Positions 5,102 through 17,047 of a stretch of 64,000 nt of DNA are shown here, one piece after another (the first letter of the stretch is position 1; each line of letters starts with the position of its first letter). The DNA is from Maridesulfovibrio sp. (lineage in GTDB: Bacteria; Desulfobacterota; Desulfovibrionia; Desulfovibrionales; Desulfovibrionaceae). The stretch lies in NCBI RefSeq assembly GCF_963676065.1, contig NZ_OY780933.1, positions 3,676,501 through 3,740,500 on the forward strand, read 5' to 3'. The notes below the pieces were generated by a model. That model ran no database searches and was not told the origin of the DNA. It saw nothing but the letters and a program-made list of their open reading frames with translations. The position numbers and the translations under genes are program-made.

Positions 5102-5851
5102 TTAGCTTTCAGCTCGCGATTTCTTATGAATCTGGACCAGGAAATGAACCAGCTTATCCTCAATTTCCCGATCATCGACGTACTCAATAATCATTTCCTT
5201 GGCGTCCTCAAGGTCATACTCTTTTAAAAGCTCACGCAACCGCATCCGCAGCTGCGCTTTTTCGCGTTTTATCTGCAAATCTTCCAGAATATCAGTGACA
5301 TAATCAAAATCTTTTTTCGCAAGGGCCTTCCTGAAACTGGTACGCACGAAATGCTGATAAAAACGCCCGGAAATACCAGTAAGAAGTGTACCCAGCCAGA
5401 CACCAAGAACCAAAGTCACAAGATCGGCAATTCTTTCCTTGGCGATATTGACCCATTCGCTAAAATCACGGTCCTTAAGCAAATCCTGAGTCTTGCGCAT
5501 TTCGAGCACCATGCGTTTGGCTGCCGGATTATTCTTATTGATGTCCAAGGCCTTCCGAAACTGGGCTTCGGCCTGCTCCAGATCTCCATTCTTAAAATAA
5601 GCCCGCCCAAGCAGGCTGTACAGCCAGTCCGAGCGGGGGTGATCCTTTAACGAACGTTCAAGACTGGAAACAGCAAGTTCGTATTCCCCGCGATCAATCA
5701 ACTCCTGGCCCATCCTGCCGCAGTAAACCTCAGATTCAATGGCGGTTTGTGATGCGGTAGCGGTATCCGCCCGGCATTCAATAATCCCGAACATTACGGT
5801 CAAGGTCAGAAGTATACAAATAACCCAGATAATTCTTTCTGTTCTATTCAT
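5102..5851 (-). CDS. TPR-repeat membrane protein
   Basis: A 249-residue protein with an N-terminal hydrophobic signal or anchor (residues 8-25). It has TPR-like repeats at about 45-115 (LAVSSLERSLKDHPRSDW, YFKNGDLEQAEAQFRKAL), a second membrane segment near 140-160 (LVTLVLGVWLGTLL) and a charged alpha-helical C-terminus. It is the last gene of the eight-gene envelope operon, 16 bp after the SpoIID gene. It is likely a periplasmic or membrane scaffold for the other products; this is inferred from TPRs and context. It converges on the PEP-synthase-like gene with only 3 bp between the stops. Confidence 0.7.
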   Translation of the reverse strand: MNRTERIIWVICILLTLTVMFGIIECRADTATASQTAIESEVYCGRMGQELIDRGEYELAVSSLERSLKDHPRSDWLYSLLGRAYFKNGDLEQAEAQFRKALDINKNNPAAKRMVLEMRKTQDLLKDRDFSEWVNIAKERIADLVTLVLGVWLGTLLTGISGRFYQHFVRTSFRKALAKKDFDYVTDILEDLQIKREKAQLRMRLRELLKEYDLEDAKEMIIEYVDDREIEDKLVHFLVQIHKKSRAES

Positions 5852-5867
5852 TAACGGCCTTACTTAT

Positions 5868-7484
5868 CTACCAGAGCCGCTTAATGCTGCTGCCGGGATA
5901 ATAGAATTTTAAAATTTCATTATATTTCTTGCTCTTACCCAATTCCGCAGCTCCCCATTGCGAATATCCTACACCGTGACCCCATCCACGTCCTTTAAAG
6001 GTATAGGAGTCACCTTTCTTATCAATTTGCAAAAGAATATCAGGCAGTTTCAAAACACGTGAACTGCCCAGAGTTGTACGGGTACGCAGATCGCGATGCC
6101 CGGATTTATATTTAATACGCACTTTCACTATTCTGCCGGACGGTCCTCTTTCCAAAGCGGTAATGGAACGGATACCGGGTACGGAGATACCGATTTTCTT
6201 CAATTTGGCCTCGATATCTTTCCGGCTGTACTTCTTGGTCCATGAAGCCATCTTACCTTTCAAGCTTGCCGGGTCCTTATGAGCGACAAGATATGCCTTG
6301 CCTGCACCAAAAATAGCCTTGGCGTCCGCGGTAAAGCCACCGCTGTTCGCTGTATATTGGGAAAGAATAGGCTTGTCCTTATATAGAAGAACATGGCCGC
6401 TGGTCGCTTTTACGGCCTTGTCAGCACGTTTATCCTCGCGATCCACACCAGCATACATCTGGTCATAAGTATCCGCGTAAACATCATAAAAAAGATGGCT
6501 GCGATGTTTCTTCTGATAATAAGCGTAAGTTCTAGCGGCAACAGCCTGAGCCTTCAGGGTTTCGGTCGGCCATGAGGCGTAGGATTCCGCAGGAACGACC
6601 GAACGCAGGTAGTCCTCAATATCGACCAGATTGAGAATCAAGAGTTTACCCTTGCGGATACTCACATCAATAATTCCCCGGACCTTCTTGCTTTCAGAGC
6701 CGTACTTAACCTTAAGAGTGCCGGTAGATTTAAATTTAATGCGGTTAGCGGAAACAACCTTACCGTCCAGAATTAGCTTGTTACTGGACAAACTGACTTT
6801 ATACTTACGTTCGCAACCAAGATCATCAGTGCAGATTTTATCTTTGCCTGATCCGGTGGTCACGGTCATGGAAGTTACCTTCCGGCTCAAACAAACCCTG
6901 AGCGAGGGTTCTTTACCTATTTTCTCGGGAATCTTCTGATCCGGCTTTTCGTCAGGCTTCTGTTCGGGTTTCTGCTCCGGTTTCTGTTCCTGCTTTACCT
7001 TCATGGAAGATATGACCGCTTCGGCCTGATACTTAAACTTACCCTTGGGAAAATAGCGCAGATACTGCTGAAAAACAGATTTGGCCCGATCAAATTTATT
7101 CATCTGGTAGTAAAGGAAGCCTAAACGATAGAGGGCTGTATCAGCATAATCTGGATAACTACGCCCAACCATGCGGTAAAGATCGGCAGCCTTTTCAGGA
7201 GCATCCAGAAAAGTGGAAAGCACCATCGCCTTACCGAACATTGCGTTTACTCTTGTCTTGGCAACCGGAGAATAGTCAACGGCGGTATCATACTGTTCAA
7301 GAGCCTCAAAATATTTACCTATATCGATCAGATAACTGGCGTAATTGATATGCCATTGGGCCTGAGCCTGATCCTCCAGTTCAACGGGAGAATACTTGCG
7401 GGCCTGTGCTCCTGCCGGAATCAGCAGCATCAAAACCAGGACTGAAAAAAGAAGTTTCTGTATTATGGCTATTCTATTTTTCAT
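5868..7484 (-). CDS. SpoIID/LytB-domain protein with N-terminal TPRs
   Basis: A 538-residue exported protein with a signal peptide at residues 1-28, a tetratricopeptide region at about 38-165, a low-complexity EQKP linker near 170-190, and a SpoIID/LytB domain from about 255 to the end. Diagnostic segments are VVPAESYASWPTETLKAQAV, ARTYAYYQ, QYTANSGG and GWGHGVGYSQWGA. SpoIID of sporulating bacteria is a lytic transglycosylase acting on denuded glycan. Homologs in non-sporulators are thought to bind or trim peptidoglycan. Here it probably remodels or anchors in the cell wall for the envelope system. Its start overlaps the upstream lipoprotein gene by 11 bp. Confidence 0.85.
   Translation of the reverse strand: MKNRIAIIQKLLFSVLVLMLLIPAGAQARKYSPVELEDQAQAQWHINYASYLIDIGKYFEALEQYDTAVDYSPVAKTRVNAMFGKAMVLSTFLDAPEKAADLYRMVGRSYPDYADTALYRLGFLYYQMNKFDRAKSVFQQYLRYFPKGKFKYQAEAVISSMKVKQEQKPEQKPEQKPDEKPDQKIPEKIGKEPSLRVCLSRKVTSMTVTTGSGKDKICTDDLGCERKYKVSLSSNKLILDGKVVSANRIKFKSTGTLKVKYGSESKKVRGIIDVSIRKGKLLILNLVDIEDYLRSVVPAESYASWPTETLKAQAVAARTYAYYQKKHRSHLFYDVYADTYDQMYAGVDREDKRADKAVKATSGHVLLYKDKPILSQYTANSGGFTADAKAIFGAGKAYLVAHKDPASLKGKMASWTKKYSRKDIEAKLKKIGISVPGIRSITALERGPSGRIVKVRIKYKSGHRDLRTRTTLGSSRVLKLPDILLQIDKKGDSYTFKGRGWGHGVGYSQWGAAELGKSKKYNEILKFYYPGSSIKRLW
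6938..6995 (-). repeat. 12-bp tandem repeat coding an EQKP linker
   Basis: Four to five imperfect 12-bp units encode (E/D)(Q/E)KP repeats between the TPR and SpoIID domains. This is a flexible charged linker, and repeat copy number may vary between strains. Confidence 0.7.
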
Positions 7485-9915
7485 CTTTATTTTCCTCCGG
7501 CTTTACTTCACCCAGACTTTCATTAACCGAAACATCTTCAGCTGACTTAACCTCTTCCTTCTCCTTCTGCACCGGAGGGGATTCTGCATCATGCTCATCA
7601 GCAGGAATATCCAAATGGTCGAGGTAATCTTTCATATACAATAAATTACTGTCGGCAGGACTGAGCAACAAGGCTTTATCCAGTACTTGACGAGCCTGCT
7701 TCAAATCTCCCTTGTTCAGCAGATAGCGCACATAAAGCTGATGCAGACGCACATCGTAAGGAAACTTTGAAATACCTTCATCCAATATTTCTGCAAGAGC
7801 AATATCATCACTCAAGGCCAGCAAGGTATAAGAAAGGTACAGATAAACATCACGGTCATCCTTCATCTTAACCGCTTTATTCAAAGCCTGATACGCATCT
7901 CCATAATGCTGGGCGTGAAATGAGCTGACGCCCCGCTCCTTGAGCTTAGCAAATTTCTTTTGCAAATCTTCGGGAGTGATATCTTTATCATCCACCAGAA
8001 TAATCCTGCGGCCATGTGGGTAAGGTGCATCCAGAATAGATTTGACCAGAACATCACCCTCAATTTTCAAATTATCAGCTGCAGCGCTCCCTAGATAATT
8101 ATCACTGACCACCAATTTACCAGCAGTTTTCAAGTTAACTTTATTATCATAAATATTATTGTTTTCAATCACGACATTACCGTCGTTAAAAATAATACCC
8201 TGAGTGCAGTTGGTTATGCTGGAGCGGAGCACAGTTCCGTTACCGGCATTCAGCAGCATTCCAGTACGGGCGTTACTTATACGCAACCCCTTGAAATCAT
8301 AATTACCAGTTTCCATCACCGCCACAGCATATTCTCCGCCATTAAATGACGAAGAACGAGCTTCTACATAGCCACCGGCAGCTGTGAGCGCTTTACTAAA
8401 TCCGGTTAATTCACACTGAGAAAGTACCGCCTTGCCACCGGGCATAACCTTTATGCCCTCGGTGGAGTTCGATGCAAAACGTACCGGAGAGCTAAGCTCT
8501 CCAAGGGCATCCATTACCCCGAGCACATCAATACGCCCTTTACCGTCAAAACGGATTTTTGTTCCGGACTGCACAGAAAATTCAGCGCCTTCAGGGACAG
8601 TCACCGGAAAGGAGATGCGGTAATTACCCTTAACCAGAACTCCGGAAAGCTCGCCGAAGAGATCCCGCTCATCAAATTGGGGCATGACAACCCGGGTAAT
8701 GCCGTCGAGAGGGGAAAGGTTTCCGGCCTTATCCTTGATGCGTACCCTGTAAAAAACCGTGGTTCCCTGCATTACATCTGAATCTACGAATTCAGGTTTC
8801 CGGGTACTGGCCACGATCTCAAAATCACCCACAGGATCAGATCCTTTCTCGATCACAAATTCATCCAGATCGTCAGCATTCGGAACTTCCCACTTCAGCA
8901 CAACTCCATCGCGCCCGGTCTGAGATTTTATCTCCTTCAATACCGGAGGCAACTCCCCATCCAAAGTTATTAAAGAACCGGATTCCGGCCATAGCCGATC
9001 CACACCGTTTGCCTTACGCATCCTGACCATCAGGGTATCATCTACAGACTTATCGCCGGTGCGGACCACATAAAAGCCTTCGTATACTCCCTGCGCGGTC
9101 TGAGGCAGGGGGATATTTTTCTTGAAATCACCTATATCAAAAGAACACTTAAGCCCCGGCTCAGCATCAACCCGTACAGAAATTTTCTGCCCGGCTCCGA
9201 AAAGCCGATTATCAACGTTGGTATCAACAGCGATCACCTCAGGCAACTTCGGTCCTTTAGGACAATCCGGCAAAACCTGCGCCATATTCCACGCCCAATC
9301 GTAAACGACCATACGCATCTGCCGTCTGATAGGGTCAGAAAAAACTTCCTCCACAATAGTCCCGGCAAGGCCGACTACACCAGTAGGCACGGAGATACGG
9401 CGTTTTGAAGCACTGTCCCGCCATTTACCGACTAAAGTTCCGGCGGAGTTATACATCGTTACTTCCGCGTCAAGCTGGAACAGATCAAAGGCCAGAGCTT
9501 TGATCATATCCGCGCTGTAAATATCTGTCTTGACGATACCGTCGGCATTCAGAAGTTTGCATAGTTCCGCATCGCTCATACTGCGCCAACCATCATCCTG
9601 CCCCAGCTCAGCAAGAGTGTTGTCCACCACATCCTTTTGCAGAGGCATAAAACCCTTACCCGCCAACTGGTTGGAGATCGATGCGCGGGTAATGTCCGCA
9701 ACAAAAACACGATCATCATCCAGCACCAGTACGGATTTATGCTCTGTAGAATTGGCTGAGTGGTCCACATATTCCGCTGGAAGAACTGCAATTTTATATG
9801 GGATTGCTTCTTCATCGGCATATTGAACTGACTGCGGTGTTTTTTTAACAAAACACCCCCCCAGTAAAAACGACGCCAGCAACAAAAAAACTACGGAATG
9901 ATACTTGTTCATCAT
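7474..9915 (-). CDS. Large GNA1162-like lipoprotein with Fn3, beta-helix and TPR regions
   Basis: An 813-residue protein. It begins with a lipoprotein signal (lipobox LLGGC, Cys near residue 21) and continues with a GNA1162-like module (about 40-215: IAVLPAEYVDHSANS, GFMPLQKDVVDNTLAELG). One Fn3-like domain follows near 330-410, then a right-handed parallel beta-helix with right-handed repeats (about 440-640), and TPRs at about 680-770 before an acidic tail. GNA1162/CsgG-type folds occur in outer-membrane pore or assembly lipoproteins. With TPRs and a beta-helix this looks like an outer-membrane scaffold. It starts 2 bp after the AsmA-like stop, so translation is coupled. It is the largest member of the operon and unlike any named system I know. 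Confidence 0.75.
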   Translation of the reverse strand: MMNKYHSVVFLLLASFLLGGCFVKKTPQSVQYADEEAIPYKIAVLPAEYVDHSANSTEHKSVLVLDDDRVFVADITRASISNQLAGKGFMPLQKDVVDNTLAELGQDDGWRSMSDAELCKLLNADGIVKTDIYSADMIKALAFDLFQLDAEVTMYNSAGTLVGKWRDSASKRRISVPTGVVGLAGTIVEEVFSDPIRRQMRMVVYDWAWNMAQVLPDCPKGPKLPEVIAVDTNVDNRLFGAGQKISVRVDAEPGLKCSFDIGDFKKNIPLPQTAQGVYEGFYVVRTGDKSVDDTLMVRMRKANGVDRLWPESGSLITLDGELPPVLKEIKSQTGRDGVVLKWEVPNADDLDEFVIEKGSDPVGDFEIVASTRKPEFVDSDVMQGTTVFYRVRIKDKAGNLSPLDGITRVVMPQFDERDLFGELSGVLVKGNYRISFPVTVPEGAEFSVQSGTKIRFDGKGRIDVLGVMDALGELSSPVRFASNSTEGIKVMPGGKAVLSQCELTGFSKALTAAGGYVEARSSSFNGGEYAVAVMETGNYDFKGLRISNARTGMLLNAGNGTVLRSSITNCTQGIIFNDGNVVIENNNIYDNKVNLKTAGKLVVSDNYLGSAAADNLKIEGDVLVKSILDAPYPHGRRIILVDDKDITPEDLQKKFAKLKERGVSSFHAQHYGDAYQALNKAVKMKDDRDVYLYLSYTLLALSDDIALAEILDEGISKFPYDVRLHQLYVRYLLNKGDLKQARQVLDKALLLSPADSNLLYMKDYLDHLDIPADEHDAESPPVQKEKEEVKSAEDVSVNESLGEVKPEENKDEK

Positions 9916-9917
9916 AA

Positions 9918-12098
9918 TTACGACTTCAACTTTCTGTCCACATTAAAGGAATTGACCGTACCGAAAACGGAACGGACTTGCCCCTCCAGTTGCAGGTGTT
10001 TCTCATCAAGGGAATACTTCCCCCCTCCCCAGGCCTGCAATTGACGTCCACTGAGATTAAAAGATTTGATGAGCATCTCTTTCCCGCTTAAAGCGGCACT
10101 CAACCGTGCAGAACTGAAATTCAGCCCCTGCCCTGACTGCGGGTTAAAGGAAACAGCATCAAGCAGGTCGATAAAAAATCCCAGACGTGGATCAAGGTTG
10201 GCAAGGTTAAAAATATGCAGGTCATCAATTTTAGCCGAAGCTTCTCCACGCACGGAACGCATTAACTCACCGGAGTTGCTTCCCTGCATGAACATATTTG
10301 CATTGAGATATATTTTGCCCCGTAGCGAAACGGACAAATCCTTGGCAAAGCACGCTATCAGGCTGGGCAGGCTGGTCCCCCGCCCTTTAATATTGCATTG
10401 AGCGGCCAGTTGTTCCTGAGCCAGAACGACATCGGCATTCAGATTAAGATGAAAAAGTTTTCCGCTGGCTTTTACCAGAGCACGATCAGCACCCGAATGA
10501 ACAAAAACCGCCACATCACTGAACGGCCAATCATTGTAGTAAAACTTACGAATAGAGGCTTTACCGTTGATGTCCCGACCAAGCAATTGCTCAAAATTAA
10601 ATTTCTCAGTCGCTTCAGAAGTTGCCACTGAAGAATCGCTTTTAGGGGTATTTGTCTCAGGGATACGGATACTTAAGGATTTTAGCTGGGCCTCATAGCC
10701 GGAAAGATTGTTACGAGGAGTATTGAAATAACCTGATGCTGAAATTCGTGTTTCCCTGTGATTCAACTGCGTATCAAACTCGGTCCGCAAAGGATTTTTT
10801 TTTTGAGCCTCGCAGGTAATTATGTAATCGAAAAGAGAAAAATCACGGGCTTCCGCCTTGAACCTAAGACGTTTAAGATCAAGAGGAAAAGACATATAAG
10901 CCTGCATATCACAGCTTCCACCTGTTGCCGAAGCGACATTAAAACTACGCACAGACACCACAGGTTTACCATCTTTCAGTTCCACATCGGCATCAATCTC
11001 GGAAATACTGAGTTCCTGTTTTTTACCGTCTGCTGCTTCGAGAACCAGTACCAGATCCTTGGCACTGACAGTCATCTTCCCGGAAAGTCCTTTATTAGTC
11101 ACAGTGCTTGGCGGGGTAGAAAGAGAAACATCTTTAAAGATCAAGGTCCCACGCGGATTAATGGATTTCAACTTCGCTGATTCGCACAGTGAACTGGTGG
11201 CATTCCGACCTCTTTCACTCTTTTGGGCCATAGCGAAAAGTTCCCCGGCATCGACCTGCGCCTCATCAAGAGAAACCTGAAAAGTTCCTCCCTGCCCCAT
11301 ATGCAGCAAAAGTCCTTTACCGCTGGTGGAATCAAGCACCAACCCACCGGCCTTTACATCCATGGTACCGACTGCATTATCTATGCTGAAATCAAGATCT
11401 GTGGTCTCAAAGTTACCGGCCTCTGCCAACTCGGGAAGGGTCGAATTGGACATGTAATCGAATCCGGTCAAAAATCCCAAGAAAGCTGCCGGATCAATTG
11501 AACATTGTGTAGCCTGAAGATTAAGCTTCAAAGGTGAGGTGGAAGCCATATCCAGACGGCCGGAAAATTTAAACCCCAACTCAGAAATGGAAGCGCTGCG
11601 AACATTAAATGTGAATCCGCCACTTTCCTTTTCCATACTGGCGGAAACGGTCAGCGGCTCCGCCTGATAGGAGTTGGTCAACTGCACTTTGCCTGAAACA
11701 ACGTCGATCTTTTCAGGAAAGAGAGAAGGCAACTCAAACGTACCGGTAGCGGAATCACTTCCTTTCCGATGTGCAAGAGCCCTTACATCCGGGTCTTGTA
11801 AAATCACATGGCGCAGCTTAATTTCACCGCTTAAAAGACTAGTAACATCGGGGAAGATTTCCAGTTGCGGAATAAGGATCGTATCCATACCGCTCTGGAC
11901 ACGCAGGTTGGTAACCCGCAGGGAAGGAAGGGGGGAGTAATGGAATTCGATATCCTCCATCACTACCCCCATGTTGGTCATATCAGAAAGCAGTTTTTGC
12001 GCGGCGTCCACAAAATGAACCCTGATCAGCACAATGGAGCCAACCGTGAGAATGGTCGCAATAATTCCGCCAATGAGGAATCCTTTTTTATGAAACAC
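9918..12098 (-). CDS. AsmA-like / DUF748-type inner-membrane-anchored protein
   Basis: A 726-residue protein with a single N-terminal membrane anchor (residues 7-27) and a long periplasmic region built of beta-strand-rich repeats. Typical AsmA-family phrases are IEFHYSPLPSLRVTNLRVQS near the start and repeated 'amphipathic strand, Gly-rich turn' patterns. The C-terminal AsmA_2-like region (about 560-720) ends with GGGKYSLDEKHLQLEGQ. AsmA-like proteins such as YhdP and TamB bridge the envelope and move lipids or assist outer-membrane assembly. It starts with GTG and has only a weak Shine-Dalgarno. It lies between the secreted FlgT-like gene and the GNA1162-like lipoprotein in the operon. Confidence 0.8.
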   Translation of the reverse strand: MFHKKGFLIGGIIATILTVGSIVLIRVHFVDAAQKLLSDMTNMGVVMEDIEFHYSPLPSLRVTNLRVQSGMDTILIPQLEIFPDVTSLLSGEIKLRHVILQDPDVRALAHRKGSDSATGTFELPSLFPEKIDVVSGKVQLTNSYQAEPLTVSASMEKESGGFTFNVRSASISELGFKFSGRLDMASTSPLKLNLQATQCSIDPAAFLGFLTGFDYMSNSTLPELAEAGNFETTDLDFSIDNAVGTMDVKAGGLVLDSTSGKGLLLHMGQGGTFQVSLDEAQVDAGELFAMAQKSERGRNATSSLCESAKLKSINPRGTLIFKDVSLSTPPSTVTNKGLSGKMTVSAKDLVLVLEAADGKKQELSISEIDADVELKDGKPVVSVRSFNVASATGGSCDMQAYMSFPLDLKRLRFKAEARDFSLFDYIITCEAQKKNPLRTEFDTQLNHRETRISASGYFNTPRNNLSGYEAQLKSLSIRIPETNTPKSDSSVATSEATEKFNFEQLLGRDINGKASIRKFYYNDWPFSDVAVFVHSGADRALVKASGKLFHLNLNADVVLAQEQLAAQCNIKGRGTSLPSLIACFAKDLSVSLRGKIYLNANMFMQGSNSGELMRSVRGEASAKIDDLHIFNLANLDPRLGFFIDLLDAVSFNPQSGQGLNFSSARLSAALSGKEMLIKSFNLSGRQLQAWGGGKYSLDEKHLQLEGQVRSVFGTVNSFNVDRKLKS

Positions 12099-12117
12099 CG
12101 TAATACCGCCGTTTTTA

Positions 12118-13095
12118 CTACTTAAGTACGAACACTACTCTTGCCTGAGCCAGCAGATTATACTTCTGGTCATAGGCGAATACGGTAGCCGCATCATCAA
12201 CACTTACCACCGCGTCAGTCACATTCTGCACGGTCTTGCCCTTGAGCACCATAGGAGACTTGCTGCCCCAAGATTCGAGCAGAGCGCGAGCCTTTTGCAG
12301 ATCAGTGGTATAACCGCCGCAACCTCTTTCTATAAGGACCTGATTGAGAACCTTTGAAGGATCAAAAAGGACTTCATTCTTATCGGTCAGGATACGGTTG
12401 ACCAGAGCGGGTTTGAAATCAAAATCACGCACATCGACGATGATACCGTCGACCGGAGTGGCCACAGCTTCCTGAATCTTTTGAGAAGCGGTTTCGGTGG
12501 TCTGGACCGGAGCTTCAACCTTTTCGGCAACTTTGGCGGGAGCTTCTTCCTTGACCGGAGTTTCTACTTTGGCTGCAACCTCTTCTTTTTTATCTTCAAC
12601 CACCGGAGCGATGATTGCAGGAAGAGTTTCAGGCTTGAAAGCCGGAATGTTACGAATATTTAAAGCTTCCGGCTCCTTACGGATAATCTCGTCAAATGCA
12701 CCGTAAACCGAATCATTACCGTGCAGATTCAACCGCAGGCAGACCCGAGCATACCCTTCGGTACGGTCAAAAGATTCACCGCAGGGCACTGCGCCACGCA
12801 GGGTTCCCTTAACGGTGGTGCGAATACGGTCACTGGAGAGCATACCGTCGCGGACCGTTGTTTTTCCGCTGAGACGCAAACCCTGAAAGATTTCAAGCAT
12901 CCTTCTCTGGGCAACTACTTCCGCAGCGCGTTTAGCGCGGTAACGGCTCTGTCCTGCTTCAGATTCACCGATTACCTGAATGTATCCCCTCTGGAATACT
13001 TCATCCGCATTTACGACCTCTACAATCCTTTCCCCTGCGACAGCGGAGCTTGCAAAAAGCACTACCGCAGTAAGGGCGAGTAATAATTTTTTCAC
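12118..13095 (-). CDS. Secreted FlgT/LPP20-like protein
   Basis: A 325-residue secreted protein with a signal peptide (VKKLLLALTAVVLFASSAVA). An N-terminal LPP20/FlgT-like module (AKRAAEVVAQRRMLEIFQG, then GTLRGAVPCGESFDRTEGYA) is followed by a Glu/Pro/Ala/Lys-rich linker (about 160-210). The conserved C-terminal domain starts GIIVDVRDFDFKPALVNRI and ends SVDDAATVFAYDQ. The same C-terminal domain occurs in the gene at 32841-33890. The GTG at 13095 is chosen because GGAGG sits 5 nt before it; the longer GTG at 13107 would contain the Shine-Dalgarno. FlgT-like modules are known from flagellar basal-body and outer-membrane lipoproteins; the function here is not known. Confidence 0.75.
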   Translation of the reverse strand: MKKLLLALTAVVLFASSAVAGERIVEVVNADEVFQRGYIQVIGESEAGQSRYRAKRAAEVVAQRRMLEIFQGLRLSGKTTVRDGMLSSDRIRTTVKGTLRGAVPCGESFDRTEGYARVCLRLNLHGNDSVYGAFDEIIRKEPEALNIRNIPAFKPETLPAIIAPVVEDKKEEVAAKVETPVKEEAPAKVAEKVEAPVQTTETASQKIQEAVATPVDGIIVDVRDFDFKPALVNRILTDKNEVLFDPSKVLNQVLIERGCGGYTTDLQKARALLESWGSKSPMVLKGKTVQNVTDAVVSVDDAATVFAYDQKYNLLAQARVVFVLK

Positions 13096-13109
13096 TTTAT
13101 CCTCCACTG

Positions 13110-14315
13110 TTAATAAATATTCATGATGTTGCGCAACCGCATAAGGGAAAGAATCAAATCCGCGCCATCCATATTGTCATCTGGACGAAAGGCTCCGGAA
13201 AGATCCGTTTCCATCAGATTACGGTTAACCACAGTGACGATGGCGTTGTACCATGCATCAGTCGGTTCAACATCCGGATAGAGAGATTTTTTCTGTCCCA
13301 TATGCTGGGTGGACATTTCTTCATCACCAGTCAGCTTAATGAGCACGTCTTCCAGCACGAAGGCCAGTTCCTTACGGTTCATCGGCTTCTTGGGATGAAA
13401 AAGATAAGCACGGGTCTGTTCATCATAGGTGGGTTCAAGACCACGGACATGCCATTTGAGGACAGTCATAATTTCCGGCTCGAACATATGTCCCACAATA
13501 TCAGCAGGTGTGAACTCAGCCTTCATTTCATTTCCGGGAACGGGAATGCGTCCGGCAAAGAGTCTATCCAGATGAAGTTCATCCACCAACAGCGCGGCAA
13601 CGTCTGCGCGATCAACCTCTTCCTTGACCGCGATTTTTTTAGCGACATCGGTAAGGGTATAATTGCTCATAGCCCGCAGGATTTTTTGAGCACGGTTATA
13701 CAAGGCATTAGCCTTATCATGCCATTTCCCCGGAGAACCGGACAAAACCACGCCGAGAACATCCTCGGCCTTGCGGAATTCGCCGCCTTTGAAGTAGGCC
13801 TCGCCCATAAAATAATGAACAGCCTCGGTCTGGCGATAATAGGGAAGATCTTCTTCAACTACATACTTAAGCATAAGCTTGGCATCAGCATAAAGGTCTT
13901 CGGCCCGCTGCAGCCAGCCACGGGTTGTGATGTGGGTGTAGACCCGGATACCGGTTACGTAAACGCTGAATTTCTGAGACCGGTCACGCCGTGCTTCGGA
14001 TACGGCTTTATCGAATTGGTCAATAGCCCGTTCGGCATCAACAGCGCTGTATTTATCATCACTTTCGGATTCGGCACGCATGGCGTAAACAAGGGCTTTC
14101 CCCGCAATAGCCGGTGCGTACTCGTCATCAAGAGCCACGGCCCGCTCAAAACGGACAAAAGCCTTTTCGGGCATACCCTTATCAATGAGCTCCATACCCA
14201 TTAAATAATGATGGGCCGGGTTATCTTCTATGGACATGGGTTTTACTTTCTTTCCGCATCCCGCAAGGGAGAGAATCAAAAGCAGGCCCGACATAAATAT
14301 TAAATATTTTTTCAT
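13110..14315 (-). CDS. TPR/SLH-domain lipoprotein
   Basis: A 401-residue protein. The lipoprotein signal ends at LSLAGCGKK, TPRs span about 30-200 (HHYLMGMELIDKGMPEKAFV), and there are two SLH-like modules at the C-terminus. These show VDRADVAALLVDELHL, KPMNRKELAFVLEDVL, SLYPDVEPTDAWYNAI and GAFRPDDNMDGADLILSLMR. SLH domains hold proteins to the cell wall or an S-layer-like surface, and in Gram-negatives they link the outer membrane to peptidoglycan or secondary polymers. The ATG at 14315 has an AAGGAGG 8 nt upstream, so the longer start at 14354 is rejected. It lies 14 bp before the FlgT-like gene. Confidence 0.8.
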   Translation of the reverse strand: MKKYLIFMSGLLLILSLAGCGKKVKPMSIEDNPAHHYLMGMELIDKGMPEKAFVRFERAVALDDEYAPAIAGKALVYAMRAESESDDKYSAVDAERAIDQFDKAVSEARRDRSQKFSVYVTGIRVYTHITTRGWLQRAEDLYADAKLMLKYVVEEDLPYYRQTEAVHYFMGEAYFKGGEFRKAEDVLGVVLSGSPGKWHDKANALYNRAQKILRAMSNYTLTDVAKKIAVKEEVDRADVAALLVDELHLDRLFAGRIPVPGNEMKAEFTPADIVGHMFEPEIMTVLKWHVRGLEPTYDEQTRAYLFHPKKPMNRKELAFVLEDVLIKLTGDEEMSTQHMGQKKSLYPDVEPTDAWYNAIVTVVNRNLMETDLSGAFRPDDNMDGADLILSLMRLRNIMNIY

Positions 14316-14441
14316 CCGGTTATCCTCCTTGCAGCGGATGCGTTCCGCCGACAATCATGGTTTACCTGCACACTACACTATCGTTATTATACAAGCGAAG
14401 GGTAAAATTAACCCATTCACCCTGCGCCCGGAAATCAGTTG

Positions 14442-15548
14442 TTAAAAACCTTCCGGATTCTGCCAGCGAAATCTGACGTTTCTACCATTAATCCTACTTT
14501 GAAACTTTTCCACGCCTAAATCCTTCAAGGCTGTAGAAACCCGCTTAAGCAGATTTTCAGGACGTAAAGTCGACCAGTAGGCGACTTCCATATTCAGCCC
14601 GTTCTGGCGCTTGACTTCCTTACGAACAAACCCTGGAACATCCTCAAGAGCGGTTCCAATGTGGGAAAGCTCCGGAAATCCCAGAAAAGTCAGCGTATAA
14701 CGGAAGCCTTTGCCTCGATCCAGCTCGCTTTCCATGTTTTCCAGCAGCTCACGTGCAAGGCGCACCGATGCCCAATAGGTTTCCGGCTTGGCAGCTTCCA
14801 CAGCACGGCTGTATACATCAGCCGGTTTACCTGAAAGGCTTACATATTTCTCAACCGGCCTGCGTATTTCACCGATTTTCAACCCGTCCGAAATACGTAC
14901 ACAGGTCATATGCATAACAGGATTGGCATGCTCAGGCAGCTTAAGATCAACTGTTACCAAGTAGTCAGCTTTTAGCAGGCTATTAAACTTAACGGCTTTT
15001 TTCAGATTCATGGAACCTTCAATCTCAGCGTACTTCGCGCGAGACATGGGCCAATCGATAACCTCAAACTGGAACTTTTTCCCGAAAGTACGTGCAACAT
15101 CATGCACCAATTCCTGCATAGATTGCGGGGGAACAGAATTGAAACCGGCCCCGGAACCGAAGATAAGCAGCCTTGGCAGGCCGGACATTTTCTGCAGGAT
15201 TGCAAGAGTGGTGTAGTCGGAATAGAGAAGATCGCTGTTTACCACTGCATCTATGGTAATGACATAGCCATCAGCAGTGGCGCCTTCCTGCAACACCTTA
15301 TAAGAAGTGACGTATCCCTTTGAATGGCTGACTATCTCGTCACGCACCAGCACTCCGGATTCCACAAGGGACTCGGAGGCAACAGCCGTACCGATCTGCA
15401 TTTCTACAGCAGTACGCAAAGCTGAATTAAGCGCCTGATTGCGGTCAATTCCCTCGCCGGTGGCCTCCACGGCAAATGCCGTGGAGGCGGCCAGCAATAT
15501 TGCAATCGCGATAGCACCCACCTGAGAGTACAGTTTTACGAAGGACAT
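14442..15548 (-). CDS. Secreted FlgT-like protein
   Basis: A 368-residue protein with a signal peptide (AIAIAILLAASTAFA). Its N-terminal module resembles FlgT/LPP20-type domains: GEGIDRNQALNSALRTAVEM, then VRDEIVSHSKGYVTSYKVL and ADGYVITIDAVV. A middle domain (about 115-240) has a Rossmann-like pattern (LPRLLIFGSG). The C-terminal part (about 265-368) is alpha/beta and shows features like secreted accessory proteins of the FlgO/FlgP/FlgT group. It starts 30 bp after the first gene of the operon. Envelope assembly is inferred from signal peptide, module type and neighbours. Confidence 0.7.
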   Translation of the reverse strand: MSFVKLYSQVGAIAIAILLAASTAFAVEATGEGIDRNQALNSALRTAVEMQIGTAVASESLVESGVLVRDEIVSHSKGYVTSYKVLQEGATADGYVITIDAVVNSDLLYSDYTTLAILQKMSGLPRLLIFGSGAGFNSVPPQSMQELVHDVARTFGKKFQFEVIDWPMSRAKYAEIEGSMNLKKAVKFNSLLKADYLVTVDLKLPEHANPVMHMTCVRISDGLKIGEIRRPVEKYVSLSGKPADVYSRAVEAAKPETYWASVRLARELLENMESELDRGKGFRYTLTFLGFPELSHIGTALEDVPGFVRKEVKRQNGLNMEVAYWSTLRPENLLKRVSTALKDLGVEKFQSRINGRNVRFRWQNPEGF

Positions 15549-15578
15549 ACAGACCTCATTTTTTTACGGCGGGAAAAC

Positions 15579-16514
15579 CTACCATTCACTGTTGCTCTGC
15601 TGTCTGCGTTGCTTAACGCGATGCTGCTTCACGATCTTCACTTCATTACCGGAAACGTAGACACGTCCCTTCATGTTCAGCTTTCTGAGCATGCGCACCA
15701 TATTACGCTTCAGATGAGAAGAATTAATGGAGGACTTGTACCACATTTCATGGTGTGAAGAAGTGTTCAGAGCATTCGTTTTGGGGCGATGGCTGTCGTA
15801 ACCGGTGAAGATGGTAATATAATCTTCAACATCGAGCATATCATCATCACTGAAACCGTCGAAAACGAGAGTCCATTCAAGAAGACGCCCAGTTGCACCT
15901 ACGCCGGAACCGGAACCTGCACCTGAACCACCAGCGTCAGAGGAACTTGCGCCTTCCGGGTGGTACTGATCAAGTCTGTCCGCCAAAACAGCGCCGACAT
16001 CGGAACCGATAATTTTGGAAAGCTTACCGACAGCTTCGAGAACATCATTTCTGCTGTAAGGTCTGGGAACCAGCTGATACTGCTGCGGCTCAGATTCAAA
16101 ATTACCCAGTCTGGAACCATCCCAAACGGAAAGGAGGCGGCCTTCAATACGGGCGGTAACCCTTACGCTGTTCTGGTTGGTCTTGGCATTGGGATAAATG
16201 CTGAAAATACAAAGAACGTCGATACCTGCATCCTTAGCGATCTGGATTAGTTCCGCATCATTACGTCTGATGCGGCCCTGAGCATGAGTCATATAAGTCA
16301 GGGCAGTTTCATCTTTAACGTCGAACCCAAGATTGACCATCTCATTTGAGATAGCATTAAGGACTCGTTTAAAAACTCTCGAGTTGCGGGGGACAGTATC
16401 TTTATCAACGTCTTCCCCGACAATCATGACCCTCGGCAGGTCGGTAGCAAGCGCAATGGTAGGCGCAACGAAAAAGCAGACTATGGCGATGAGAAGTAAT
16501 GCTGATTTCCTCAT
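15579..16514 (-). CDS. Secreted protein, first gene of the envelope operon
   Basis: A 311-residue protein with a signal peptide (LLIAIVCFFVAPTIALA). It has a CsgG/LpoB-like alpha/beta domain (about 28-190: PRVMIVGEDVDKDTVPRNS, VRVTARIEGRLLSV), a Gly/Ser linker (about 190-210), and a C-terminal domain with a basic tail (QHRVKQRRQQ). A good AAGGAG precedes the ATG. No named family is certain; the N-terminal half has the flavour of secreted FlgO/LpoB-type lipoprotein domains but lacks a lipobox. It is first behind the promoter at 16744-16772 and leads eight co-directional, closely spaced genes. Confidence 0.6.
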   Translation of the reverse strand: MRKSALLLIAIVCFFVAPTIALATDLPRVMIVGEDVDKDTVPRNSRVFKRVLNAISNEMVNLGFDVKDETALTYMTHAQGRIRRNDAELIQIAKDAGIDVLCIFSIYPNAKTNQNSVRVTARIEGRLLSVWDGSRLGNFESEPQQYQLVPRPYSRNDVLEAVGKLSKIIGSDVGAVLADRLDQYHPEGASSSDAGGSGAGSGSGVGATGRLLEWTLVFDGFSDDDMLDVEDYITIFTGYDSHRPKTNALNTSSHHEMWYKSSINSSHLKRNMVRMLRKLNMKGRVYVSGNEVKIVKQHRVKQRRQQSNSEW

Positions 16515-16710
16515 GTCACTCTCCTTAAAAGTGGGTGGTTAAACTATTTATCCGACTCTGTAGGTCGAGATGGTCGTAAAAAGTACTCCTAAACCCCACC
16601 GGGTTTTTCCAACAATGACTAGACAAGTTAAGATAGCTTAAAACTTATTAGTAACTATATTATATTACACGACTTATGCAACATAATTTGAATCATTCAA
16701 TAAACTTTTT

Positions 16711-16901: not shown

Positions 16902-17047
16902 ACAATACTTATCCACGGTTTTTATAATGAATCCTTTGAGAATGAAAAGCGAGGGGAAAAATTAACCTGTTCAACCTACACATTCTCAAATAACACATTC
17001 AAAGCTTCAGGCGTGACATAAAGGAAAGCTAAAAAGGCATCACAAAA

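Follow-up and report, generated by a model that had tools for sequence, protein, structure and literature searches.

FlgP and FlgT have been discussed as parts of the flagellar motor adapted for torque, and the SHS2 domain of the FlgP type carries a hairpin insert that has been linked to ring formation (PMC12222027). Here, we describe an operon of eight genes, designated A to H, at positions 5102 to 16514 of a 64,000-nucleotide (nt) stretch of the Maridesulfovibrio sp. genome (contig NZ_OY780933.1, positions 3,676,501 to 3,740,500; hereafter, the window). The genome consists of one contig (4,227,349 bases). Two of the products resemble FlgP and FlgT, and sequence comparisons support the existence of a conserved envelope module in which such proteins are accompanied by an SLH lipoprotein and by wall-cutting and lipid-transport partners. 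We tentatively propose, with somewhat less than even confidence, that the eight genes specify a flagellum-independent envelope complex of the ring-forming FlgP/FlgT type, which may amount to a hitherto unrecognised structure located between the outer membrane and the cell wall. If this is true, the FlgP/FlgT-type ring module has an envelope role wider than flagella. We found no description of the cluster among the titles and abstract openings listed by searches of an open-access library, which lacks most subscription papers.

Gene D (12118..13107, on the minus strand like the seven others) encodes a secreted protein of 329 amino acids (aa) with an N-terminal domain of the FlgP/LPP20 type (~12703-12990). 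The window copy has no Pfam match, and LPP20 was matched in 5 of 22 aligned rows. The D profile matched 9hmf_C, a lipoprotein of the Campylobacter jejuni motor scaffold that we take to be FlgP, at 3.6e-19, and two chains named FlgP, 8z5n_2 and 9yds_Aa, at 3.4e-12 and 6.9e-10, respectively. The alignment of D with 9hmf_C is gapless from the helix through the region that we read as the hairpin insert, and we consider on this basis that D has a FlgP-type domain including the ring-linked hairpin region. The C-terminal domain of D (~12121-12456) resembles a stretch of PDB 5jir (5jir_B, 1.6e-7).

Gene B (14442..15548) encodes a secreted, FlgT-like protein of 368 aa composed of an N-terminal domain of the FlgP/FlgT_N type, a middle domain of the TolB_N/CsgG type, and a C-terminal alpha/beta domain. 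FlgT_N fell below the cut-off in the window copy (19.5 versus 28.8 bits) and was matched at an E value of ≤0.1 in 11 of 19 aligned rows, including that of the window. The B profile also matched 9hmf_C (1.4e-5) and the N-terminal domain of D (95.6%). In the predicted model of B (predicted local distance difference test [pLDDT] score of 75), strands 60-63 and 66-70 lie between the helix and the next long strand, where pLDDT is <50, so that a hairpin region is suggested in B less firmly than in D. Residues 121-277 of the model gave Z scores of ~10 to 11 to TolB, CsgG, PelC, and FlgT, and LpoB and PelBC were also among the fold matches. Together, these comparisons support the assignment of D and B to the FlgP/FlgT superfamily. 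This adds a specific point to the parts list of an earlier note on this DNA, made from the sequence alone, which had described two FlgT/LPP20-like proteins.

Gene C (13110..14315) encodes a TPR-SLH lipoprotein, as that note had also recognised: SLH (PF00395, at ~13155-13280) scored 29.8 bits against a cut-off of 20.8, and the cysteine is present in 19 of 19 aligned rows. Its start is most likely the ATG at 14315, which stands behind AGGAGG, rather than the TTG at 14354. A scan with the C alignment recovered 33 loci, 2 of them from the genus and the rest including Thermosulfurimonas, Desulfothermus, NaphS2, Desulfobacteraceae, Geobacter, and Nitrospirota records. The closest named record, "Desulfovibrio sp. 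UBA2564," is 95% identical to C, and identity outside the genus is 43 to 60%. C-like matches occurred in 52 of 297 genomes of the class sample, some of them being weak matches of TPR length. At an E value of ≤1e-30, C was found in 59 of 345 sampled Desulfobacterota genomes, counting that of the window, and in 26 of 118 sampled Nitrospirota genomes, at least 3 of which (G310, G315, and G318) were already among the earlier loci.

C and D are linked across the two phyla, often with B, F, and G. Among 59 non-genus loci, all chosen for having C and several of them cut by contig ends, C and D lie within 300 nt of each other in 50; in L111, D next to C was visible only by six-frame search. On the strand of C and at an E value of <1e-30, we labeled D in 53 of these loci, B in 31, a CsgG-type gene in 25, F in 20, G in 16, E in 11, and X in 8. 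The set comprises 28 loci from the scan with the C alignment, 10 picked matches from the class sample, 20 picked matches from the phylum scans, and L044; L047 and L048 (genus), L058 (on the contig of L044), and L075 and L078 (short) were dropped from the 33-locus scan. Labels came from purpose-built hidden Markov models (HMMs), some with few seeds, and reading frames were crude in GC-rich loci, with a six-frame check covering L110 to L119. The seeds for X and Y included the genes of locus L041 by our own pairing, and BLASTP afterwards gave 1e-13 and 1e-26. The arrangements seen include B-X-Y-C-D-E-F-G, F-B-X-Y-C-D-E-G, E-G-F-B-CsgG-C-D, and B-CsgG-C-D, and the core is carried by the named isolates Thermosulfurimonas dismutans S95 and Geobacter sp. 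OR-1. In a midpoint-rooted tree of C built from 65 rows, with flags on some long branches, the genus grouped with genus g5 (100/96), which belongs to the same family, among rows from Desulfobacterota; this placement is compatible with descent plus losses. In L055 (Desulfothermus okinawensis), the genes are in broken frames, as are FlgI and FlhA of that genome, probably reflecting errors in the draft sequence.

The association with flagella was evaluated in the genomes of 29 of the 33 loci from the C alignment scan. FlgI was absent from 15 of these 29 non-genus genomes, FlhA from 14, and both from 13, including NaphS2 (6.6 Mb), the 13 being drafts or metagenome-assembled genomes (MAGs) of unreported completeness. 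Because 13 of 29 genomes had neither protein, the cluster does not appear to be only a flagellar accessory, and since the association with flagella did not hold, we place the cluster in the FlgP/FlgT/CsgG envelope superfamily, outside the flagellar system. An accessory of the flagellar motor, with H-ring or basal-disk proteins whose genes lie apart from the flagellar ones, would explain the similarity to FlgP and FlgT and the occurrence of FlgI or FlhA in the other 16 genomes, but it is very improbable in view of the 13 genomes and of the immediate flanks in the window, which are not flagellar. SLH lipoproteins, SpoIID, and AsmA-like proteins are also not known to belong to such rings, which further counts against it.

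Several points weigh against our proposal of a ring-forming complex independent of the flagellum. The cluster genomes that do have FlgI, FlhA, or both are in the majority (16 of 29), and those with neither are the drafts and MAGs mentioned above. For the hairpin, a correlation with rings in the FlgP family is all that is reported (PMC12222027). The model of B superposed on FlgT (3w1e) with a Z score of 10.7 over 204 residues at a root mean square deviation of 12.5, and no Foldseek match of B reached an E value of ≤0.001, the best being 1.3e-3. As chains of tRNA synthetases and polymerase accessory proteins reached Z scores of 8 to 9, the fold of B says little about its function, and the identity of B between groups is 14 to 25%. 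At a looser E value of <1e-8, labels were obtained in 34 of the 59 loci for B, 29 for F, 18 for G, and 8 for caspase, the F count being inflated by TPR matches. Finally, E matches YhdP below the Pfam cut-off (28 versus 46 bits), and A fits no known family, its profile comparisons being unusable.

Gene G (5868..7484) encodes a secreted protein of 538 aa with TPR and a SpoIID domain, scoring above the cut-offs of Pfam PF08486 (96.1 versus 23 bits) and of TIGR02669 (213.2 versus 83.3 bits), as expected from the SpoIID protein of the earlier note. E101 is the catalytic residue of Clostridioides difficile SpoIID, and a Zn motif is reported in that protein alone (PMC6221140). E300 of G (codon 6585-6587) aligns with E101, and the Zn motif is absent from G. 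G is thus, as judged by alignment, a predicted SpoIID-type glycan lyase with the catalytic glutamate. Gene E (9918..12098) encodes a protein of 726 aa with an N-terminal membrane anchor and AsmA/YhdP/DUF748-like character. Homologues of E have DUF748 matches, and the E profile matched no solved structure at an E value of ≤1. The AsmA-like label of the earlier note is therefore borne out by the anchor and by the similarity to YhdP and DUF748 but not by a score above the curated cut-off, and E weakly resembles AsmA/YhdP without family membership.

Gene F (7474..9915) encodes a lipoprotein of 813 aa with a GNA1162-like N-terminal domain (seen in homologues), a fibronectin-III-like stretch, a beta-helix, and TPR. 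Beta-helix and TPR matches were obtained with the window copy, as had been noted before; the GNA1162-like part of that description (PF05643) holds for 5 of 14 aligned rows (best, 1.5e-11) but not for the window copy, and the F profile matched 4hrv at 1.8e-6. Gene H (5102..5851) encodes a TPR protein of 249 aa with a second transmembrane-like segment, read by eye, consistent with the TPR membrane protein described earlier. A CHASE2-cyclase gene lies near F and SpoIID in some relatives (L079:2377-4479 and L071).

Lipid-transport genes recur among the 59 loci: E is present in 11, and MlaE/MlaF/MlaD-type genes lie near the cluster in 7 others (L059, L065, L076, L136, L069, L072, and L132; divergent in the first four), a lack of overlap that is not significant. 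Pfam confirmed the Mla labels for the one MlaD and one MlaE that were checked. Wall enzymes recur as well: SpoIID, an Amidase_3-TPR protein, which all 6 sister clusters tested for it carry (L114 to L119), and an SLT transglycosylase in the related cluster of the window genome. These observations, which count in favour of the ring-forming complex, could also belong to a system that tethers the outer membrane to peptidoglycan and maintains it, similar to Tol-Pal or Lpo, in which FlgP/FlgT/TolB-type proteins would be periplasmic adaptors without a ring, C would link the membrane to the wall, G would trim glycans, and E and (elsewhere) Mla would supply lipid. The middle domain of B counts TolB and LpoB among its best fold matches, and the SLH lipoprotein C shows good conservation between phyla. 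We nevertheless regard such a tether as unlikely, since the domain of D is of the FlgP type and includes the hairpin region linked to rings and the patchy distribution of the cluster (59/345 and 26/118 genomes) argues against a housekeeping role.

The sister group, in other genera of the order, comprises 7 loci (L113 to L119; 5 from the same family and 2 from other families of the order) with D, C, and P334 or TPR genes. The clearest cluster is at L115:5054-11783, with a FecR-domain gene downstream. SpoIID lies beside the Amidase_3 gene, on its upstream side, in L115 and L118 and was not found in the examined stretches of L113, L114, L116, L117, and L119. P334 showed no clear relation to B (5.9%). 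The window genome itself contains a second, related cluster (L041:3553-17436, in C1:2316001-2336000) with paralogues of A and B facing apart (42% and 27%), homologues of the X and Y genes common to Desulfobacterales-type clusters, a protein resembling D, a transglycosylase of the SLT/MltC type, and a 1046-aa protein with numerous LGGDDAD-like repeats. Caspase-domain proteins were detected near the cluster with a purpose-built model in 8 of the 59 loci at an E value of <1e-8, 4 of them at <1e-30, and Pfam confirmed the domain at L110:13049-14536 and L060:13928-15292.

The CsgG-family protein of relatives raises a further alternative, namely, a portal for secretion of a polymer (protein fibre or polysaccharide) with a pore base of the CsgG/PelC type, the other genes forming a channel through the wall. 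This protein occurs in the 25 loci labeled above; that of L061, encoded between B and C and the only one scanned, scored 136.9 bits for CsgG and 31.3 bits for FlgT_C (cut-off, 27). The PelC, PelBC, and CsgG matches of B and the beta-helix of F would fit a portal too. In contrast, none of the eight window proteins has a CsgG match in Pfam at E values of up to 1, and the eight genes include none that obviously encodes a secreted substrate, a polymerase, or a chaperone, which makes a portal quite improbable. Gene A (15579..16514), encoding a secreted protein of 311 aa without known family, had been called CsgG/LpoB-flavoured in the earlier note, and this attribution found no support in sequence: Pfam gave no meaningful match, and profile comparisons with the CsgG-family protein (13.0%) and with B (6.7%) gave nothing usable. 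A comparison of X with the CsgG-family protein (3.7%) was similarly unusable, and we therefore assign no CsgG role to either A or X. The predicted structure of A (pLDDT of 42.7, from three sequences) was too poor for use.

Returning to the ring-forming envelope complex, our best guess is a ring or disk that would lie beneath the outer membrane, be attached to peptidoglycan, and be served by wall trimming and lipid supply. In the outer periplasm, the FlgP-like D and the FlgT-like B would assemble as oligomeric rings or a disk. C, as an outer-membrane lipoprotein, would hold the assembly, with its lipid anchor and TPR at the outer membrane and its SLH domain at the peptidoglycan. G would cleave denuded glycan strands, allowing the structure to sit in, or pass, the wall, while E, anchored in the inner membrane, would supply or bridge lipid to the outer membrane at the site. 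F, as a second lipoprotein, and H, as an inner-membrane TPR protein, could be scaffolds at the two membranes, and A may be a lineage-specific accessory. A more far-reaching version, which we consider rather doubtful, is that the cluster represents a distinct type of trans-envelope machine that is common in Desulfobacterota and Nitrospirota. Such a machine would combine non-flagellar FlgP/FlgT-type rings, held to the wall through an SLH lipoprotein, with a dedicated wall cutter and lipid bridge, and it might be the ancestral source of flagellar outer rings, or the reverse.

Within the genus, the operon is nearly constant. B is present in 16 of 17 genomes, counting that of the window, as is A, which is found in only 3 of 280 other genomes of the class sample; genus member G014 showed no match to A, B, or C. 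The 15 other carriers have all eight genes in identical order, H being a short remnant in L032 (genome G011). A divergent second copy of A (45%) stands beside the operon at L039:1607-2473 (genus genome G008). The neighbours are also syntenic, a PPDK-like gene in 13 of 15 loci and YajQ in 14 of 15, so synteny within the genus is weak evidence of a functional unit, and the stronger evidence of linkage lies outside the genus. Conservation of gene order had been set beforehand as a test that could refute the proposal of a unit, and the proposal passed it: genomes of the genus retain the order, and linkage of the core spans two phyla. This does not extend to all eight genes as one unit everywhere, as A is nearly confined to the genus and outside it H carries a clear label in genus g5 alone, its labels elsewhere being weaker TPR matches.

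In the window, the eight open reading frames (ORFs) follow each other in tandem at 5102-16514, as described in the earlier note. Counting C from 14321, successive genes from A through H are separated by 30, 120 (126 from the ATG), 2, 19, 2, -11, and 16 nt, so that spacing is tight apart from the ∼120 nt between B and C. Inspection by eye showed, at the N terminus of each of the eight products, a signal peptide, a lipobox (C and F), or a membrane anchor (E), consistent with the claim that each is exported or membrane bound. The parts list given there (a lipid-bridge-like protein, a peptidoglycan-active protein, a wall-binding lipoprotein, and a scaffold) is mostly recovered at the domain level; that these parts assemble or transport anything is an inference. 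The flanking genes encode a PPDK-domain protein, a DUF520 (YajQ-type) protein, and a STAS protein, together with a 158-aa ORF that has no Pfam match.

The operon had been placed behind one good promoter. The TTGACT/TATTAT site named for it lies at 16772-16744, and a promoter-like element, GTTGCATAAGTCGTGTAATATAATATA (16656..16682, minus strand), precedes A by 141 nt and is partly conserved in the genus. In an alignment of 15 of the 16 genus carriers (L039 was left out), this element was, by eye, near-identical in 6 and recognisable with changes in 7, and it was not seen in L031 and L040. Scans for such signals were near chance, with 25 promoter-like sites versus 18.0 (standard deviation, 4.8) in shuffles and 16 terminators versus 16.0. 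A 33-nt element stands on the minus strand upstream of A (16947..16979) and in the B-C gap (14393..14425), where it is immediately followed by TATAAT. With ≤3 mismatches, the pattern, composed from its two copies plus relatives, occurs at two places in the whole 4.2-Mb genome, both in the operon, and it had no match in window shuffles or the reversed control. With ≤5 mismatches, the copy upstream of A is found in 10 of 16 genus loci, counting the window, and the B-C copy is found in 2 (the window and L027). The copy in the B-C gap with its TATAAT suggests a candidate internal promoter, and because the element stands both upstream of A and in this gap, two co-regulated units, A-B and C-H, are suggested at least in the window genome. 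The promoter claim therefore holds only in part, and it is doubtful that a single promoter drives all eight genes.

Finally, we compared the cluster with known systems. It resembles the SpoIID/SpoIIP glycan-degrading machine through the SpoIID domain and aligned glutamate of G and through the Amidase_3 protein of sister clusters, but it differs in having no amidase among the eight window genes, in the TPR N-terminal half of G and its lack of the Zn motif, and in belonging to a two-membrane envelope. With the TolB/Pal, LpoB, CsgG, and PelC superfamily, it shares the modeled fold of the middle domain of B, at <20% identity, without the beta-propeller of TolB and without a CsgG sequence match in the window cluster. 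E recalls the AsmA/YhdP/TamB lipid bridges through its weak YhdP match, the DUF748 of its homologues, and its N-terminal anchor, but it scores below the curated cut-off and is encoded within an envelope-scaffold operon. The likeness to the FlgO/FlgP/FlgT rings (LPHT ring) and to the Campylobacter FlgP basal disk lies in the FlgP-type domain and hairpin region of D, the FlgT-like N-terminal and middle domains of B, and, in relatives, the CsgG-family protein, with FlgT_C in L061. In contrast to those rings, the cluster is present in genomes in which no FlgI or FlhA was found and is linked to genes for an SLH lipoprotein, SpoIID, and an AsmA-like protein.

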